Part shown: positions 13,248 to 43,067 of the stretch, piece after piece
Layout: each line of letters starts with the position of its first letter
How positions within the stretch are numbered: position 1 is the stretch's first letter
DNA from: Halpernia frigidisoli
GTDB taxonomy: Bacteria; Bacteroidota; Bacteroidia; Flavobacteriales; Weeksellaceae
DNA length: 64,000 bases
Assembly: GCF_900113805.1 (NCBI RefSeq)
Contig: NZ_FOQT01000001.1
Coordinates: forward strand, 310,001-374,000
Direction: 5' to 3'
Translations under genes and position numbers: made by a program
Notes under the pieces: model-generated
What the model saw: the letters and a program-made list of their open reading frames with translations, nothing else
The model's database searches: none
Told to the model about the DNA's origin: nothing

Positions 13248-13754
13248 ATGGCGGTGAAAAACACTTCTGCGGAACAGGAATTTTTAACACAGATCGAAAA
13301 GCACAAAGGAATTTTATTTAAAATTTCTAAAATGTATATGGATGATGCCGAAGATCAGAAAGATCTTTTTCAGGAAATAACTTATCAAGCCTGGAAATCA
13401 TTACACAATTTTCGTGGGGAAAGTCAGTTTTCGACTTGGGTTTACAGAATTGCTTTAAATACGGCGATAATTTTCCTTAAAAAAGGAAAGCGAAAACTAA
13501 CTGTAAGTTCTGATCAAATTGAAAATTTTACAATTTTAAATGAGGAAAGTAATTCAGAGAAAGAAGAAAATTTAAGTAAAATGTACGCAGCAATTAATCA
13601 GTTAAATAATATCGACAAAGCATTAATTTTTTACTATTTAGAAAATTTTAGCGGAAAAGAAATTGCCGAAGAAATGGGAATTACAGAAGTGAACGTTCGG
13701 GTAAAACTGAACCGCGCGAAAACAAAATTAAAAGAACTTTTAAACCAAAATTAA
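13248..13754 (+). CDS. ECF-type RNA polymerase sigma factor
   Basis: The 168-residue protein has sigma region 2 (DLFQEITYQAWKSLHNF then FSTWVYRIALNTAI, residues 40-75) and region 4 with a helix-turn-helix (SGKEIAEEMGITEVNVRVKLNRAKTKLKE, residues 135-163), and lacks regions 1 and 3. It should direct polymerase to a small alternative regulon. The next gene starts 1 base after its stop and encodes a membrane protein, the normal setting for an anti-sigma partner. An A+T-rich leader with a near-consensus -7 box precedes it. The signal sensed is unknown. Confidence 0.9.
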   Translation: MAVKNTSAEQEFLTQIEKHKGILFKISKMYMDDAEDQKDLFQEITYQAWKSLHNFRGESQFSTWVYRIALNTAIIFLKKGKRKLTVSSDQIENFTILNEESNSEKEENLSKMYAAINQLNNIDKALIFYYLENFSGKEIAEEMGITEVNVRVKLNRAKTKLKELLNQN

Positions 13755-36462: not shown

Positions 36463-36530
36463 TTGCATATCTGTTTTTTTTTTTTTTTTTACAAGGTTGA
36501 AAATAAGTGTACAATTATTGGTAACAAAAA
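36463..36530 (+). promoter_or_regulatory. Conserved leader of array unit 1 with a T17 tract
   Basis: CTTGCATATCTG is followed by 17 T (36474-36490), then ACAAGGTTGAAAATAAGTG and an ATTATTGG block. Nearly the same block recurs at 37809-37870 (T13) and 39110-39210 (T45). It ends 30 bases before the peptide ATG. No perfect -7 box can be assigned. Confidence 0.6.
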
Positions 36531-36559
36531 TTTAGTTTAAACCTTAAAAATTTATTAAA

Positions 36560-36880
36560 ATGAAAAAAATTATTTTAGGACTGTTTATGACAGTTGGTGT
36601 CTCAGCATTTGCAATGGCAAATACATCCGTTTTTGTTAAAAATTATAAAGAATTTTCAAAAATTGAAAAAAAAATTAATATTAAAAATGTTTTAGAAACT
36701 ACTAATTTAGTAGACTGTTACCACGGTTTCAAAGCCACGTTGATTGACTGTGCAGGAAACTCGCACAGCGTAGATATGGGTGGTTTTCCGGGCGAATGCG
36801 GAAATAGTGAAGATGGGTCGGTTGTCCTGCATTATATGGGAACCTTTTTATCGGAAGATTGCATAGGACAAACAAATTAA
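36560..36880 (+). CDS. Small secreted Cys-containing peptide, array unit 1
   Basis: The 106-residue product starts MKKIILGLF with a 21-residue Sec signal ending AFAMAN. The mature peptide contains four Cys (VDCYHG, IDCAG, GECGN, EDCIG) and the shared pattern DC...G.C..(D)DGSV seen in units 2 and 3. There is no double-glycine leader and no modification enzyme nearby. Signal and leader DNA are almost identical to unit 3 while the mature part is divergent. The GLPGLI gene starts 4 bases after the stop. Function unknown; disulfide bonding and partnership with GLPGLI are inferred. Confidence 0.75.
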   Translation: MKKIILGLFMTVGVSAFAMANTSVFVKNYKEFSKIEKKINIKNVLETTNLVDCYHGFKATLIDCAGNSHSVDMGGFPGECGNSEDGSVVLHYMGTFLSEDCIGQTN

Positions 36881-36884
36881 TTGT

Positions 36885-37655
36885 ATGAAACGATTTTTGT
36901 TATTTTTATATGTATTAAGCGCAATATTTTCTTTCTCGCAAAATTCAATAGTTATTAAATACGATTTTGTACAAAATACAGATAACACTTCTAAAATATA
37001 CGGTCAGTTTTTAGTTTCAAATAAAACGGAAAGTTATTACATAATGCCTTTTCATAAAGTATTTAAAAATTATGATGAATTATTAAATGATCAGGATTAT
37101 GCAGATTCTGGAAGATATATGAATTCTTTAAAAAAAACAGATAATTACATTTTAGGAGTTGCTTATATACCAAATAATCCAATAATAAAGATTTATAAAG
37201 ATTTTACACCTGAAATCAAATGGAAAATACTTAGCGAAACTAAATTAATTTTTAATTTTAATTGCCAATCAGCAGTTGGAAATTTTAGGGGTAGAGATTA
37301 TAAAGTGTGGTTTACAACTGAAATTCCTATTTCAGATGGTCCTTGGAAACTTAGCGGTCTGCCAGGTCTGATACTTGAAGCAACTGACTCAAATGGCTAT
37401 TTTAGTTTTACTGCATCTGGAATTAGTTCAAATTCTAGTTATGTTATTCCCCGGAAATTAATTAATTTTTATAGTGAGAATGATAAAAAAATAATTAAAT
37501 ATTCAGAATTTATCTTCGAAGAAAACAATGCACTGTCTGTATTTAGACAAAAGATGATGGCTAATTTGCCGAAAGGTGTACAATTGACAAATATTCCACC
37601 TATTAGAAAATTAGAAATTGAAGCTAATTTTGAATGGGAAAATGAAAAGCAGTAA
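36885..37655 (+). CDS. GLPGLI family protein, array unit 1
   Basis: The 256-residue product has a Sec signal (YVLSAIFSFSQ) and the family-defining motif GPWKLSGLPGLILEA in mid-protein. It is preceded by NCQSAVGNFRGRDYKVWFTTEIP, and the end reads NFEWENE. GLPGLI proteins (TIGR01200) are exported Bacteroidetes proteins with no known function, frequently next to TonB-receptor-like barrels. It starts 4 bases after the secreted-peptide gene. Units 2 and 3 carry paralogues with the same FRGR-Y-VW and GLPGLILEA blocks. A terminator follows. Confidence 0.92.
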   Translation: MKRFLLFLYVLSAIFSFSQNSIVIKYDFVQNTDNTSKIYGQFLVSNKTESYYIMPFHKVFKNYDELLNDQDYADSGRYMNSLKKTDNYILGVAYIPNNPIIKIYKDFTPEIKWKILSETKLIFNFNCQSAVGNFRGRDYKVWFTTEIPISDGPWKLSGLPGLILEATDSNGYFSFTASGISSNSSYVIPRKLINFYSENDKKIIKYSEFIFEENNALSVFRQKMMANLPKGVQLTNIPPIRKLEIEANFEWENEKQ

Positions 37656-37675
37656 TGTTAGATTTCATTATCAAC

Positions 37676-37712
37676 AAAAAGAAGGTAGAAAAGTTCTGCC
37701 TTCTTTTATTTT
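37676..37712 (+). terminator. Intrinsic terminator after GLPGLI unit 1
   Basis: AAAGAAGG-AGA and TCT-CCTTCTTT form an imperfect stem around a short AAGT loop, followed by a T-rich run. Confidence 0.75.
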
Positions 37713-37724
37713 TAAAAATCATTT

Positions 37725-37781
37725 GTGAAATTTTTCTTTATTTTTTGGTTTAAGATTTTAGCACAAACTGAATTAAAAGGT
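37725..37781 (+). pseudogene. Fragment of the TonB-receptor gene's 5' end (between units 1 and 2)
   Basis: From GTG 37725 the frame reads KFFFIFWFKILAQTELKG, matching the signal peptide and first residues (LKISAQTEIRG) of the intact receptor at 40416. It then fuses abruptly to the leader DNA of the next array unit at GGT|CTGC. The identical junction occurs at 39083. It is a deletion remnant, not a gene. Confidence 0.7.
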
Positions 37782-37808
37782 CTGCTTTTAAAATTATTAA
37801 GAATTTAT

Positions 37809-37870
37809 CTTGCAAATCTGTTTTTTTTTTTTTCTTTACAAGGTTGAAAATAAGTGTACAATAATTGGCA
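37809..37870 (+). promoter_or_regulatory. Conserved leader of array unit 2 with a T13 tract
   Basis: CTTGCAAATCTG, 13 T at 37821-37833, then CTTTACAAGGTTGAAAATAAG and ATAATTGGCAAC. It is homologous to the leaders of units 1 and 3 except for tract length. Confidence 0.6.
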
Positions 37871-37909
37871 ACAAAAAATTAAATTTTAACCTTTAAAAAT
37901 TTATTAATT

Positions 37910-38188
37910 TTAAAAAAAATTACCTTCGGACTTTTTATCACAGTTGGTATGACAACTTTTGCTTTTGCAAAAAATGATGGTAATGCAGAGCGTCTTTTGA
38001 AGAAAGATTTTTTAAAAGTTGCAGATTGTAACATTAGCGCAAATGTTAAAACTTATGATCAGGGTGGGACACTATTATCTAATATAACATATAAAACCAC
38101 TGGGTCAGGTTCAGAATGTGATGGCGCTACTGATGGTCTAGTACTAATTAATACTAAAAGAGTTGTAGAAGGAATTACCGCTCCTTAA
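37910..38188 (+). pseudogene. Secreted-peptide gene of array unit 2 with lost start codon
   Basis: Aligned with units 1 and 3, the signal peptide here reads LKKITFGLFITVGMTTFAFAK, but the position of the ATG (37910-37912) is TTA. The rest of the frame is open to 38188 and keeps two Cys (ADCNIS, SECDG) and the DGLV end. An internal ATG at 37949 would leave only half a signal peptide, without its basic start. Either expression is off or a rare start (an in-frame ATT just upstream) is used. A hairpin separates it from the GLPGLI gene. Confidence 0.6.
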
Positions 38189-38197
38189 ATTTTAAAT

Positions 38198-38224
38198 TGA
38201 GGCTTTCAGTGAGCCTCAGATTTT
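38198..38224 (+). terminator. Hairpin between peptide 2 and GLPGLI 2
   Basis: TGAGGCT (38198-38204) pairs with AGCCTCA (38212-38218) around a 7-base loop, followed by a short ATTTTAT run. It is absent from units 1 and 3, where the genes are only 4 bases apart. Confidence 0.5.
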
Positions 38225-38237
38225 ATAAATAAAAAAA

Positions 38238-39014
38238 ATGAAAATAAGATTTATTACTTTCTTTCTTTTCCTTTCTCTTGTAATGTTTTCCCAAGGAGTA
38301 AAAAATTTGGTAGTAGAGTATTCTATGGTTCAGGACGAAAACGGAGCTAATGATAGTTTTAATGAGTTTTTAATTTCGTCAGATAATGAGAATTTGTATT
38401 TTAATTACGGTAAAAGTAACGCTGTACTAAGTATTGATCAAGTTTTTGCCAATTTTGATTTACAAAAGTTAAACTATGTAATTAAGCGCGAAAATTCTGG
38501 TGATATTATTGAATCTGGATGGCGTGTTTTACCAAAAGTAGAATTTATAAAGGATGAACAAACTGTAATAAATTGGAAATTATTAGTTGATGCAAAGAAA
38601 ATCTTAAATTATAATTGTAATAAAGCGCAATGTATTTTTAGAGGTAGAACATATACGGTTTGGTATACTATGGAAATCCCATCCAAAATCGGTCCCTGGA
38701 AACTTTCTGGCTTACCAGGTTTAATTTTGGAAGCGATTGATAGTAAAAATCTGTATAATTATTATGCAAGAAAGGTGATGCAAAATTATACGTTAAAAAC
38801 CCCGGATAAGTTTAATGAATTTACGAAAAAAATGGAAAAAAATCCAATCCCTTTAAAATCCTATATCAAAATACAAAATGATTTTTTAAAGGATCTTAAT
38901 AGAAGAAATTTAGCCAATATGCCTGCTGGAAGTATTATGGCACCTAACCAAAACCTTCGCGAAGCTCTGAAAGAAATAACTTTTGAATGGGAAATTTTTC
39001 CAGAAAAACTGTAA
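38238..39014 (+). CDS. GLPGLI family protein, array unit 2
   Basis: The 258-residue product has a Sec signal (FLFLSLVMFSQ), the FRGRTYTVWYTMEIP block and GPWKLSGLPGLILEA. The C-terminal FEWEIFPEK matches the paralogues. Unlike units 1 and 3 it begins 49 bases after the peptide stop, beyond a hairpin, so it may be expressed apart from the broken peptide gene. Its TAA is directly followed by a GTG that begins a receptor-gene fragment, showing that a receptor gene once lay immediately downstream. Confidence 0.92.
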   Translation: MKIRFITFFLFLSLVMFSQGVKNLVVEYSMVQDENGANDSFNEFLISSDNENLYFNYGKSNAVLSIDQVFANFDLQKLNYVIKRENSGDIIESGWRVLPKVEFIKDEQTVINWKLLVDAKKILNYNCNKAQCIFRGRTYTVWYTMEIPSKIGPWKLSGLPGLILEAIDSKNLYNYYARKVMQNYTLKTPDKFNEFTKKMEKNPIPLKSYIKIQNDFLKDLNRRNLANMPAGSIMAPNQNLREALKEITFEWEIFPEKL

Positions 39015-39083
39015 GTGAATAAAATATTTTTATTTTTTTTACTTTTTTGCATTAAAATCTCTGCACAAACTGAAATAAAAGGT
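39015..39083 (+). pseudogene. Fragment of the TonB-receptor gene's 5' end (between units 2 and 3)
   Basis: GTG 39015 abuts the GLPGLI stop and encodes NKIFLFFLLFCIKISAQTEIKG, clearly the receptor signal peptide and first residues. It then joins the next unit leader at exactly the same GGT|CTGC junction as the fragment at 37781. It reads on into the T45 tract as polyphenylalanine, so it is not a functional gene. Confidence 0.75.
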
Positions 39084-39109
39084 CTGCTTTTAAAATTATT
39101 AAGAATTTA

Positions 39110-39215
<106 letters not shown>

Positions 39216-39240
39216 ATTTAACCTTAAAAAATTTATTAAA

Positions 39241-39555
39241 ATGAAAAAATTAATTTTAGGACTGTTTTTGACAGTTGGAATTTCTAGTTTTGCAATGGCA
39301 AATTCTTCTGTTGCAAAAAAAAGTTCTTTGGATTTGTCAACATCTGAAAAACAATTAAGTATCGGTAAATATTTAAAATTAAAATATACTATGGACTGTT
39401 GGAATAGTACAACCTGGAATGACTATGATTCTTCAGGTCATCTTACTTCTAGTATCACTGTTGCTTATGCAGGAGCATGCTTACCTGGAGATGCAGATGG
39501 CACGGTACATATGACAATTCATAATAACAAACCAGCAATTGCTGCTATTAATTAG
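39241..39555 (+). CDS. Small secreted Cys-containing peptide, array unit 3
   Basis: The 104-residue product starts MKKLILGLFLTVG with a signal ending FAMANSS, nearly identical to unit 1. The mature part holds two Cys (TMDCWN and GACLPG), separated by a Ser/Thr/Tyr-rich stretch, and the DADGTVHM motif. The pair probably forms one disulfide outside the cytoplasm. The GLPGLI gene follows 4 bases after the stop, as in unit 1. No family name known to me. It does not resemble radical-SAM or double-glycine peptide precursors. Confidence 0.75.
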   Translation: MKKLILGLFLTVGISSFAMANSSVAKKSSLDLSTSEKQLSIGKYLKLKYTMDCWNSTTWNDYDSSGHLTSSITVAYAGACLPGDADGTVHMTIHNNKPAIAAIN

Positions 39556-39559
39556 TTAG

Positions 39560-40333
39560 ATGAAATGTCTTTTCTTTCTCTTATTATTTTTTTCAAATTT
39601 TATTTATTCACAAAATAGAGTTGGAGTTGAATATCAATTTGTTTTTAATAATGATGATAAGTTTAGTGAATATCTTTTTATTGAAGATGGTTTTTCGTAT
39701 TATTTTGGTGTTGGAGGTATTTATGATCATTTTGATAAAACAGATTATAAAAGTGCTCTAACAGAATTAAACGAAAATAAAGATCTAGGAACTGTTAGGT
39801 TATTTTATTCTGCAAATACTGGTAAACTTTTTGAATATAAAGTGGCAGTTAAACCAAAACCACTTTTAGCTTGGGAATTATTACCTAAAATTCCGTGGAA
39901 AATAGACGCAGACCATAAAGAGATTTTAGGTTATGATTGTCAAAAAGCAAGTTGCATTTTTAGAGGAAGAACTTATATAGTTTGGTTTGCCCAAGATATT
40001 CCTGTGAGTGAAGGACCATGGAAATTAAAAGGTCTTCCAGGATTGGTTTTGGAAGCCCGTGATGTTGAAGGGCAATATAATTATCTTGCGAAATCTATTA
40101 TTATCAGTTCTGATTTAGAAGAACCAATAATCGAAAAAGAATATTTTGATAAAGAAATTCCTAATTCGAAAAATCTCAAAGAAGTTATTTTGCTTGAGAA
40201 TAAGTATTTAAATGGTAGAAGAAGTGAAATAATGGCATCTTATCCTTCTGGAACTGTTTTTCAAAATCCCCCAATTAGAAATAGCTCTAAAGAAACGGAA
40301 TTTGAGTGGGAAAATGAACCTGAAAAACCTTAA
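39560..40333 (+). CDS. GLPGLI family protein, array unit 3
   Basis: The 257-residue product has a Sec signal (LLFFSNFIYSQ), FRGRTYIVWFAQDIP, GPWKLKGLPGLVLEA and the FEWENEPEK end. It is slightly diverged in the motif (GLPGLVLEA). It sits 4 bases after the peptide gene and upstream of the only intact receptor gene, from which it is separated by 82 bases and a terminator-like hairpin. The ancestral unit was probably peptide, GLPGLI, receptor. Function unknown. Confidence 0.92.
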   Translation: MKCLFFLLLFFSNFIYSQNRVGVEYQFVFNNDDKFSEYLFIEDGFSYYFGVGGIYDHFDKTDYKSALTELNENKDLGTVRLFYSANTGKLFEYKVAVKPKPLLAWELLPKIPWKIDADHKEILGYDCQKASCIFRGRTYIVWFAQDIPVSEGPWKLKGLPGLVLEARDVEGQYNYLAKSIIISSDLEEPIIEKEYFDKEIPNSKNLKEVILLENKYLNGRRSEIMASYPSGTVFQNPPIRNSSKETEFEWENEPEKP

Positions 40334-40359
40334 TTTTAAAATCTATAATTATTAAATTT

Positions 40360-40389
40360 ATGGCAAATAAAATCTGCCATTTTTATTTT
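40360..40389 (+). terminator. Terminator-like hairpin between GLPGLI 3 and the receptor gene
   Basis: ATGGCA (40360-40365) pairs with TGCCAT (40375-40380), followed by TTTTATTTT. Readthrough or attenuation could set the receptor level. Confidence 0.65.
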
Positions 40390-40415
40390 CTCAAATTTTT
40401 TTCTCAAATTTCTGA

Positions 40416-43067
40416 ATGAAGTTTTTTACAATATTATTTATTATTTTTTCACTTAAAATTTCTGCACAAACAGAAATTAGAGGATCGGTAATTGATGATC
40501 ATAAAAGACCGTTAGCAAGTGTAAATATTATTTTGCTCAACTCAAAGGATAATATTATCACTTTCGTCTTTAGCAGTAAAGACGGAAGTTTTGTTATAAA
40601 CAGTCAAAAAACCGGCGATTTTAAATTAAAAATAACAGCACTTAATTTTCACCCAAACATTTTAGATATTTCAATTATCAATAAAAATAAACCTATTGAT
40701 TTAGGTAAAATTACCTTGGTTCAATTAAAAGAAACCGAAATAAAAGAAGTAGTAATCTCACGGAAAATACCAATTCGTGTTAAAAAAGACACCATAGAAT
40801 ATTCGGTAAAAAGTTTCTCAAACGGTACCGAGCAAAATGTAGAAGATCTGCTAAAAAAACTACCGGGAATTAAAATAGATAAAGACGGAAAAATAAAATA
40901 TGGGGACAAAGAAGTAGATCACGTCTTGGTAGAAAACGACGATCTTTTTGAGAGAGGTTACCAAACTTTAACGCAAAATATGCCGTCCCAACCATTAAAA
41001 TCTGTGCAGGTTTTAAAACATTATTCTAAAAATAAATTACTAAAAGGCGTAGAAAACTCGGAAAGTATCGCGCTAAATCTTACCCTAAAAGAAGATGCGA
41101 AAGACCAGTGGTTTGGCAGCGTTTTGCTGGCTTCCACGAGTTATAAGGAAGATATGAGGCAGGCAAAATTCAACCTGATGAATTTTTCTAAAAAGAAAAA
41201 ATTCTACTTGTTATTCAATGGCAATAATCTGGGTCTGGATGAAATGAATGGCGTAGAGTATCTCATAAATCCTTCTTCAGACAAAGACGTAGAAAATGTG
41301 GGTGGAAATATAAATACACTTTCGATTTTAAATCTTCATCAAAAAAATTACCAGTTTGAGGATAAAAGAACCAATTTTAATAATGATAAACTGGCGTCGC
41401 TAAACTACATCAACAATTTTAAAAACAACTGGAAATTAAAATTTGTCACCATTTTTAATCAGACGGAAAATAGAAATTTTACCGAAAGTCTCTACAGGTA
41501 TAATTACCAGGGTTTAAATTTTACAAACACGCAAAGTAAAACCTGGCAGCAGCAGAAACAGAACATTGTCGCAAAAATAGAACTCGTAAAGGATTTCAAG
41601 CAAGAGGCAAGCCTTAAGTTTTACAATAAATTTTCCTGGTTGCAGGAAGATAATGATAACAGCTTTATCTTCAACGGTACGCCAAATAACCAACTTGGGG
41701 ATAACCGTCTTTTTTCGAGCGAAAATAAAGCGGTTTATACCAAAAAGATAGATTCTTCACAGGCATTTGTCGCTGTGGTAAAATTTATTTCGCAGAACCG
41801 ACCTTACCATTTTAGAGAAAAAAGCAATGTTTTTCAGTCTTTGTTAAAAAATGAAAATGCGCAAAATATTTTAGAAAACATCAATTCTGATATGTATTTT
41901 GGTGGTGGAAAATTATCTTACTTAAAGAAATATGCAGAAGATCATAATCTTGAAATCCAGATAGGCGATGAGTTCCGTAATAATAATCTAACATCTGATA
42001 TTTCTGTTTTCAGCGATTCGGGGTCAGAAATTAATTTTGAAAAAAGCGCCTTTAAAAACAATATTCATTTTAGGCAAAACAAATTGTTCGCACAGGGAAA
42101 ATATAACCGGAAAATTAAAAAGTTATCATTTGGTGGAAATCTTTTAACCCAGATAATTTCCACTAATTTTAATGAAAATAAAGACAATCAATTTATTGTT
42201 TCACCAATTTTAAATATAAGTTTTGAAAGCAAAAATTTTGGAAGTCTCTCCCTGTCGGGCGGCAGAAGTTTTTCCCAAACAAATATTAATGATCTAAATA
42301 TCAACTATATTTACAGCGGAAACAGGAGTTTTCAAAAGAGCGATGTTGGTTTTAGGTTATTGCCTTCTTACAATTTTAATATTGGTTACAGCATAGGGAG
42401 TGAACTTTCAGACCAGTTAATTTTTAATGCTTCCTATTTTAGAAACGAAGATTATCTGTCTAATAATGTGATCGTTAATCCAGATTACAGTTTGTTCCAA
42501 AAAATACTAGTAAAAAATAATCACAATATCTCTGGCAATTTACAGGCAAAGCGTTATATAAAATTTATAAGTTCGAGGTTTAGTTTAATTGGTTCTTATT
42601 TTAATTCTGACTATCAAAACAGCGTTAATAAACAACCGTTAATTACCACTAAATTCTCAAATGCAAAAGCAGGTTTCGAAATGAAATCAGGCTGGACAAA
42701 ATTTTTAAATTACGAACTTGGCTATAATTTCACATTTAATAATATACGGTCCGATATTAATTCAAACAAATACACGGATCAGAAAGGATTTGTAAATCTG
42801 TATTTTAGAATTTCGCAAGTGTTTAATTTACTATCAAACTACGAGATTTACAGATATGGAAGTACGGCGCAGAGATCCATTCAGTTTTTAGATCTAAATT
42901 TAGATTATAAATGGACAAAGTATAAAATGAATTTATTCATTAAAGGCAATAATTTATTAAATGTCAGATCTATACAAAGATATTCTATTGATAATATCAG
43001 CGAAAGTCTTTATACACAAAGGTTAATTTCAAGAAATATTCTTTTCGGAATAAATAAGAATTTTTAA
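40416..43067 (+). CDS. TonB-receptor-like outer-membrane beta-barrel protein with carboxypeptidase-regulatory-like domain
   Basis: The 883-residue product has a Sec signal ending KISAQ and a CarboxypepD_reg-like domain (TEIRGSVIDDHKRPLASVNIILL, residues 19-100). A plug-like region follows (DTIEYSVKSF...NVEDLLKKLPGIKIDKDGKI, residues 125-160), then a long run of amphipathic barrel strands. It resembles SusC-like barrels in plan but lacks a typical TonB box and belongs to the outer-membrane beta-barrel group that accompanies GLPGLI proteins. It presumably sits in the outer membrane and takes up or binds a ligand. Its stop overlaps the convergent ribF stop by 4 bases. Confidence 0.85.
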   Translation: MKFFTILFIIFSLKISAQTEIRGSVIDDHKRPLASVNIILLNSKDNIITFVFSSKDGSFVINSQKTGDFKLKITALNFHPNILDISIINKNKPIDLGKITLVQLKETEIKEVVISRKIPIRVKKDTIEYSVKSFSNGTEQNVEDLLKKLPGIKIDKDGKIKYGDKEVDHVLVENDDLFERGYQTLTQNMPSQPLKSVQVLKHYSKNKLLKGVENSESIALNLTLKEDAKDQWFGSVLLASTSYKEDMRQAKFNLMNFSKKKKFYLLFNGNNLGLDEMNGVEYLINPSSDKDVENVGGNINTLSILNLHQKNYQFEDKRTNFNNDKLASLNYINNFKNNWKLKFVTIFNQTENRNFTESLYRYNYQGLNFTNTQSKTWQQQKQNIVAKIELVKDFKQEASLKFYNKFSWLQEDNDNSFIFNGTPNNQLGDNRLFSSENKAVYTKKIDSSQAFVAVVKFISQNRPYHFREKSNVFQSLLKNENAQNILENINSDMYFGGGKLSYLKKYAEDHNLEIQIGDEFRNNNLTSDISVFSDSGSEINFEKSAFKNNIHFRQNKLFAQGKYNRKIKKLSFGGNLLTQIISTNFNENKDNQFIVSPILNISFESKNFGSLSLSGGRSFSQTNINDLNINYIYSGNRSFQKSDVGFRLLPSYNFNIGYSIGSELSDQLIFNASYFRNEDYLSNNVIVNPDYSLFQKILVKNNHNISGNLQAKRYIKFISSRFSLIGSYFNSDYQNSVNKQPLITTKFSNAKAGFEMKSGWTKFLNYELGYNFTFNNIRSDINSNKYTDQKGFVNLYFRISQVFNLLSNYEIYRYGSTAQRSIQFLDLNLDYKWTKYKMNLFIKGNNLLNVRSIQRYSIDNISESLYTQRLISRNILFGINKNF

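Follow-up and report, generated by a model that had tools for sequence, protein, structure and literature searches.

Tandem peptide–GLPGLI gene pairs with predicted poly-T promoter spacers in Halpernia frigidisoli: putative phase-variable cassettes upstream of a single receptor-like barrel

We analyzed a 64,000-nucleotide stretch of Halpernia frigidisoli, a member of a genus related to Chryseobacterium (RefSeq assembly GCF_900113805.1, contig NZ_FOQT01000001.1, positions 310,001 to 374,000; this whole stretch is referred to as the window, and positions are counted from its first letter). We found that three units, each composed of a gene for a small signal-peptide-bearing peptide and a gene for a GLPGLI protein, are arranged in tandem and followed by a single gene for a receptor-like barrel of 883 amino acids (aa). 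We consider it rather probable that the array is a set of phase-variable cassettes, each encoding a disulfide peptide and its cognate periplasmic GLPGLI carrier, which are served by one TonB-type barrel. More tentatively, and with somewhat less than even confidence, such arrays may represent a new class of peptide system, in which slippage-switched cassettes, each consisting of a diversified disulfide mini-protein and its own LolA/RseB-like GLPGLI partner, are exchanged from genus to genus like specificity alleles and depend on one TonB-type barrel. The features of the array, in units of base pairs (bp) and amino acids, are as follows.

36463..36491, + strand: predicted promoter of unit 1; TTG (-33), 18-bp spacer containing most of T17, and TTTTTTTA (-7-like)
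36560..36880, + strand: unit 1 peptide, 106 aa; signal peptide and mature part with four Cys
36885..37655, + strand: unit 1 GLPGLI protein, 256 aa; TIGR01200 3e-38, fold predicted from homology to the modelled unit 3 protein
37722..37790, + strand: remnant of a receptor 5' end (...FKILAQTELKG...), attributed to array growth
37810..37838, + strand: predicted promoter of unit 2; TTG, 18-bp spacer containing most of T13, and TTTCTTTA
37913..38188, + strand: unit 2 peptide frame, open, start codon lost; first in-frame ATG at 37949
38238..39014, + strand: unit 2 GLPGLI protein, 258 aa; TIGR01200 4e-34
39015..39090, + strand: second receptor 5' remnant (MNKIFLFFLLFCIKISAQTEIKG...)
39112..39172, + strand: predicted promoter of unit 3, predicted OFF; TTG, 50-bp spacer containing most of T45, and TTTCTTTA
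39241..39555, + strand: unit 3 peptide, 104 aa; two Cys in the mature part
39560..40333, + strand: unit 3 GLPGLI protein, 257 aa; structure modelled, LolA/RseB-like
40416..43067, + strand: receptor, 883 aa; CarboxypepD_reg, plug-like region and outer-membrane barrel

The leaders of the three units were nearly identical, and carried T tracts of T17 (36474-36490), T13 (37821-37833) and T45 (39123-39167). A first-pass annotation, made from the sequence alone, had located these tracts exactly and had regarded them as part of a leader; the location stands, and the generic leader gives way to a putative promoter-spacer repeat. The consensus of the -7 box in Bacteroidota is TAnnTTTG (PMC9723704, PMC2483708). 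When boxes were assigned by this consensus, the T tract was placed between a -33 TTG and a -7 TAnnTTTG-like box. At its 3' end, the tract of relatives has the sequence TATGTTTG, TAGGTTTG, TAAGTTTG, TTGCTTTG or TTTCTTTG, which matches or approaches the consensus, and a TTG lies upstream. We had initially placed the -7 box at TACAAGGTTG, and comparison with the loci L075, L078, L083 and L085 showed it to lie where the T tract ends on its 3' side. A palindromic hexamer, TGTACA, lies about 16-20 nucleotides past the -7 box in each window unit (36508-36513, 37855-37860 and 39189-39194). Its core varies self-complementarily elsewhere (TGCGCA, TGGCCA, TTGCAA), and a palindrome was present in 18 of 28 leaders; the element resembles a dyad operator and may be one.

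Part of the spacing argument comes from loci picked for a tract of T>=12, and the 16 loci found by GLPGLI homology are therefore listed separately. Their spacers measured 14, 15, 18, 18, 18, 19, 19, 20, 20, 20, 21, 21, 22, 22, 41 and 50 bp, 12 of them falling at 18-22 bp, with unit 3 (50 bp) and Halpernia humi (41 bp) far outside this range. The length of the T run offset that of the non-T part of the spacer (Spearman -0.51, p 0.04 for all 16 loci; -0.81 for those within 17-23 bp), and units 1 and 2 shared an 18-bp spacer despite their unlike tracts (T17 and T13CTTT). In comparisons that are made between paralogues and between species, near-identical leaders differed in their tracts, which were T17, T13+C+T3 and T45+C+T3 in the window units and T36 in H. 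humi; the paralogous leaders of L084, with identical flanks, carried T16 and T9.

To search for this architecture blindly, we used the pattern TTGC-N3..10-T12-N0..4-TTTG in 316 genomes, with the reversed pattern as a control, and obtained 21 distinct sites as compared with one for the control. Thirteen of the 21 were directly upstream of a peptide-GLPGLI pair, and one more was an L115-type leader cut by a contig end before any peptide gene (L128, G002:C7:112467-112494); among the remaining sites are some that resemble terminators and one at a lipoprotein gene. The exact Halpernia leader turned up only within the genus, which had led us to regard it as a local oddity, and this view was overturned by the recurrence of the relaxed promoter architecture beyond Halpernia. 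Short repeats were found in 17 of 42 regions upstream of peptide genes and in 3 of 121 upstream of other genes (p 4e-9), and one of those three control repeats (L012) is the peptide's own shared intergenic repeat. Other repeats replaced the T tract in some loci, namely ten copies of ATT in L103 and, at two additional peptide-GLPGLI loci in the H. frigidisoli genome, TTTTAA and TTTTAG. Such swapping of repeat types at the same place fits selection for switching and is not predicted by neutral AT-richness. The promoters thus apparently bear the signature of slippage-driven phase variation.

The same data bear on the explanation that the T tracts are neutral, or artefacts of assembly, and that the peptide and GLPGLI genes are adjacent by chance. 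In its favour, the genome is rich in AT, assemblies can misjudge homopolymer lengths, and an H. humi contig ends in such a tract at the yjbR site. However, runs of at least 16 T occurred in the 3.02 Mb genome only in units 1 and 3, most of the blind-search sites adjoin the gene pair, and the arrangement recurs in many genera, which together make this explanation highly improbable. With respect to H. humi, one complete unit with T36 lies elsewhere in its genome, and the contig that ends at a T23 tract (L039:6543-6575) does so at the yjbR site orthologous to the window; an array at that site may be absent from the assembly.

Within the window, the signal peptides of the units were 50-77% identical and the mature peptides 18-26%, in accordance with the contrast between conserved leader and signal and divergent mature part drawn in the first-pass annotation. 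A Cys peptide in every unit had also been claimed, and this holds for units 1 and 3; in unit 2, TTTTAA occupies the place of the ATG, and no in-frame ATG, GTG or TTG precedes 37949, which lies inside the signal peptide. Because the start codon is lost, the unit 2 peptide is probably silent. Among arrays in general, signal peptides were 50-100%, mature peptides 17-35% and GLPGLI proteins 25-37% identical. The first-pass annotation had also suggested computing whether peptide and GLPGLI protein co-vary, and we found that the distances between mature peptides correlated with those between the adjacent GLPGLI proteins (Mantel r=0.567, p=0.0002, 22 pairs), a correlation which held with the receptor controlled (partial 0.553). 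The receptor was tracked weakly by the mature peptide and GLPGLI (0.23 and 0.15), and more by the signal peptides (0.48). The nearest relatives of both the peptide and the GLPGLI protein of unit 1 were in another genus (L075), not in the neighbouring units, and the same cross-genus pairing was seen for L084a, with L078c as its nearest relative, and for L084b with L087a. These data suggest exchangeable specificity cassettes that have their expression and secretion signal in common.

We therefore propose the following mechanism, in which the slippage step is supported by the sequence pattern and the partner relation by co-variation, and in which we infer the length switching itself, the ON and OFF states, physical binding of peptide to GLPGLI, passage through the barrel and the biological role. 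Slippage in the T tract, or in other short repeats in other lineages, would alter the -33/-7 spacing, so that each cassette would switch stochastically between ON, with a spacer near 18-22 bp, and OFF, with one outside this range; the prediction is ON for units 1 and 2 (18 bp) and OFF for unit 3 (50 bp). From an ON cassette, a small beta protein would be exported via Sec, acquire its disulfide bond and fold in the periplasm, where the GLPGLI partner would hold its own peptide as a carrier or chaperone. The single conserved TonB-type barrel would serve all cassettes, the peptide being displayed, released or recovered through it.

Several points weigh against this proposal. When the distance between TTG and TAnnTTTG was surveyed at ordinary promoters in the loci retrieved, no length stood out clearly, and the spacing optimum therefore rests on the T-tract loci themselves. 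The -7 boxes of Halpernia, TTTCTTTA and TTTTTTTA, deviate from the consensus, and the T45 and T36 tracts could have been sized wrongly by assembly. A repeat is absent from many peptide loci, including most loci of the other two subtypes. Finally, the term cognate is based on correlated distances in a set of 22 pairs that are partly related.

Promoters controlled by homopolymers are already known, as in sabA, vlp, fim and opc. In the vlp genes of Mycoplasma hyorhinis (Yogev, 1991) and the fim genes of Bordetella pertussis (Willems, 1990), a promoter homopolymer reportedly alters spacing, and vlp is said to combine a conserved promoter and signal with a variable mature part. These gene families or operons resemble the Halpernia array in the spacing-altering homopolymer, and vlp also in the conserved signal and variable mature part, but come from another phylum, differ in promoter type, in the repeated base and in their products, and lack a GLPGLI-like partner or common receptor. 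In Helicobacter pylori sabA, a poly-T of 13-19 nucleotides in the promoter region slips and tunes the expression of a surface protein (PMC2715451, PMC4081817). The likeness lies in a poly-T within the promoter region; the sabA tract, however, is argued to change RNA polymerase binding and not to be a mere spacer (PMC4081817), whereas in Halpernia the tract forms part of the predicted -33/-7 spacer, the controlled genes are unrelated, and slippage is a proposal based on sequence. Invertible promoters of Bacteroides fragilis, including those of outer-membrane SusC/SusD genes, are likewise stochastically on or off within Bacteroidota (PMC11868660), through DNA inversion by a recombinase in contrast to the repeat slippage proposed here. 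In the open-access literature searched, we found no description of a slippage promoter combined with a peptide-GLPGLI pair, nor of homopolymeric phase variation in Flavobacteriia, and repeat-slippage promoter switching would, if true, be an addition to Flavobacteriales.

Since such promoter repeats typically govern surface structures, sabA being an example (PMC2715451), the switch might mainly hide or alter a surface-exposed peptide and barrel, as in the variation of surface antigens or phage receptors. The last cassette's GLPGLI gene abuts or overlaps the receptor gene in many loci, and the repeat therefore probably switches the barrel too. The barrel, however, was 50-63% identical across genera, and is thus conserved and not diversified, and its surface exposure is presumed; we regard this alternative as unlikely.

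A contig scan with patterns derived from the three window GLPGLI proteins gave no confirmed relative, and the receptor was used as the query instead. In 40 neighbourhoods, the order of signal-peptide Cys protein, GLPGLI and receptor was seen repeatedly. Arrays of two or three units were present in several genera (L075, L078, L084, L087), L080 contained seven GLPGLI genes, and many of these loci lie, like the window array, between yjbR and a riboflavin kinase gene. With a profile built from the window GLPGLI proteins, relatives were detected in 29 of the 33 genera of Weeksellaceae. When a profile of the peptide only was applied to 196 genomes of the order, genes followed by GLPGLI were found in Weeksellaceae and in one further family (L162, L164, L167, L173, L178, L183); weak matches elsewhere, confined to the signal peptide, had no GLPGLI downstream. 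Recurrence of the pair, whose absence the first-pass annotation had named as a refutation, was thus borne out in many genera of Weeksellaceae and in other Flavobacteriales. Across the phylum, a receptor-sequence search placed GLPGLI directly upstream of the receptor in 45 of 79 receptor relatives, and no such peptide was seen with the pairs in Cytophagales, Saprospirales and Bacteroidales. The receptor-GLPGLI pair therefore looks like the older and wider association, and the peptide like an addition seen in Flavobacteriales. As short remnants of the receptor gene 5' end occur upstream of units 2 and 3, the window array appears to have grown from a peptide-GLPGLI-receptor unit.

These observations also bear on the possibility of a toxin-immunity array, in which the peptide would be antibacterial, GLPGLI its periplasmic immunity protein and the barrel a route of export or entry. 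In its favour, the peptide has the bacteriocin-like trait of a small, apparently exported protein with a co-varying neighbour, co-varying pairs are common to several genera, and signal peptides are homogenised within arrays. Peptides seem to be lost before their partners, as represented by the seven GLPGLI open reading frames with mostly decayed peptides in L080, a broken peptide adjoining an intact GLPGLI in L075, and the start-less unit 2 peptide with its GLPGLI retained; in unit 1 of L078, a GLPGLI gene with an in-frame stop is accompanied by a spacer of about 15 bp, predicted OFF. On the other hand, in L081 it is the GLPGLI gene that is frameshifted while the peptide next to it is intact, in an otherwise degenerate operon whose receptor is frameshifted too. 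PADLOC gave no meaningful match to any family, and no relevant toxin or defence family was matched in Pfam/NCBIfam. The widespread GLPGLI-receptor pairs without peptide point to an independent role for GLPGLI, not one primarily in immunity. Together with L081, these pairs lead us to favour a carrier role over immunity, and we judge a toxin-immunity array to be improbable; the peptide held by such a carrier might serve as a toxin, for display or as a bait.

The peptides belong to no Pfam or NCBIfam family, and annotation pipelines leave them unnamed because they fall outside all the models tested. Searches of pheromone, ribosomally synthesized and post-translationally modified peptide (RiPP) and bacteriocin families gave no meaningful match, apart from one weak PhrK match on the signal peptide. 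Two Cys were invariant across 35 peptides. The model of the unit 1 peptide showed a predicted three-stranded beta sheet at residues 53-97 (predicted local distance difference test, pLDDT, about 82-90 in 51-100; whole-model predicted template modelling score, pTM, 0.41), and a fold search with it gave no significant match in PDB.

The three larger proteins, identified as GLPGLI in the first-pass annotation, scored 131.8, 118.3 and 127.1 bits against TIGR01200, whose curated cut-off is 50 bits, and are members of the family by this measure (TIGR01200, PF09697 Porph_ging). They carry the motif GPWKLSGLPGLILEA in units 1 and 2 and GPWKLKGLPGLVLEA in unit 3, with an N-terminal hydrophobic signal. 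They differ from ordinary members in being a shorter (about 255 aa), divergent subset tied to a secreted peptide; among 35 ordinary high-scoring GLPGLI genes (about 285 aa), a peptide accompanied four, all of them of the short divergent type. Weeksellaceae genomes contain up to 40 GLPGLI copies. The model of the unit 3 protein (61 sequences; pLDDT 90.2, pTM 0.86) resembled the PNGF-II N-domain (VIA Z 14.3), RseB (9.2) and LolA (about 8), as well as ependymin-related proteins and VioE, and a sequence profile also matched PNGF-II (7e-9). By this model, GLPGLI has the LolA/RseB/PNGF-II "bowl" fold, a predicted open beta-barrel with helices. In several bowl-fold proteins, an open barrel accommodates a hydrophobic or protein ligand. 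Identity to GLPGLI is only 6-17%, however, the lipoprotein, sigma-regulator and glycosidase roles are not implied, and the predicted shared fold is no proof of function. In one paper from the open-access literature searched, GLPGLI genes are listed only as PhoP-regulated. The co-varying secreted partner, the predicted ligand-binding fold and the common barrel make its function directly testable, and the cassette reading, if true, would provide a first function for this large orphan family, as cognate peptide carriers.

The receptor after the last unit, announced by the first-pass annotation as a single intact barrel, was indeed one 883-aa protein. Its PF13620 score was just above the cut-off, and plug and barrel were read from the sequence and its relatives, with no Pfam match for either. 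A TonB-type barrel with a periplasmic binder is an uptake layout, which is shared by the peptide-less GLPGLI-barrel pairs across the phylum, and the secreted Cys peptide might accordingly be a bait that catches a metal, glycan or peptide and returns via the barrel to GLPGLI. However, the diversification of the peptide and its co-variation with GLPGLI, not with the barrel, would be unexpected if the barrel is what recognises it, and we consider this distinctly unlikely.

Further peptide loci were noted besides those of the window type. In the H. frigidisoli genome, two more peptide genes (L012:5263-5580 and 13422-13736), each followed by two GLPGLI genes, lie beside ribosomal-protein gene clusters, with the TTTTAA and TTTTAG hexamer repeats directly after TTGCATA. 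In a second subtype, a peptide with a C-x-M/I-T-x-T-x-Y-like motif is followed by two GLPGLI genes, usually without a receptor (L010:2976-4883, L076, L091, L093, L096, L097, L099, L100, L108). At L018:5405-5764, also in H. frigidisoli, GLPGLI and a large receptor-like gene are preceded by a peptide whose C-terminal part is Ala/Gly-rich, of bacteriocin-like composition, and whose promoter region contains no repeat. Between 3209 and 3464 of L082, a 77-bp tandem array (TTATCTT x 11) separates a divergent gene from yjbR, unlinked to a peptide gene.

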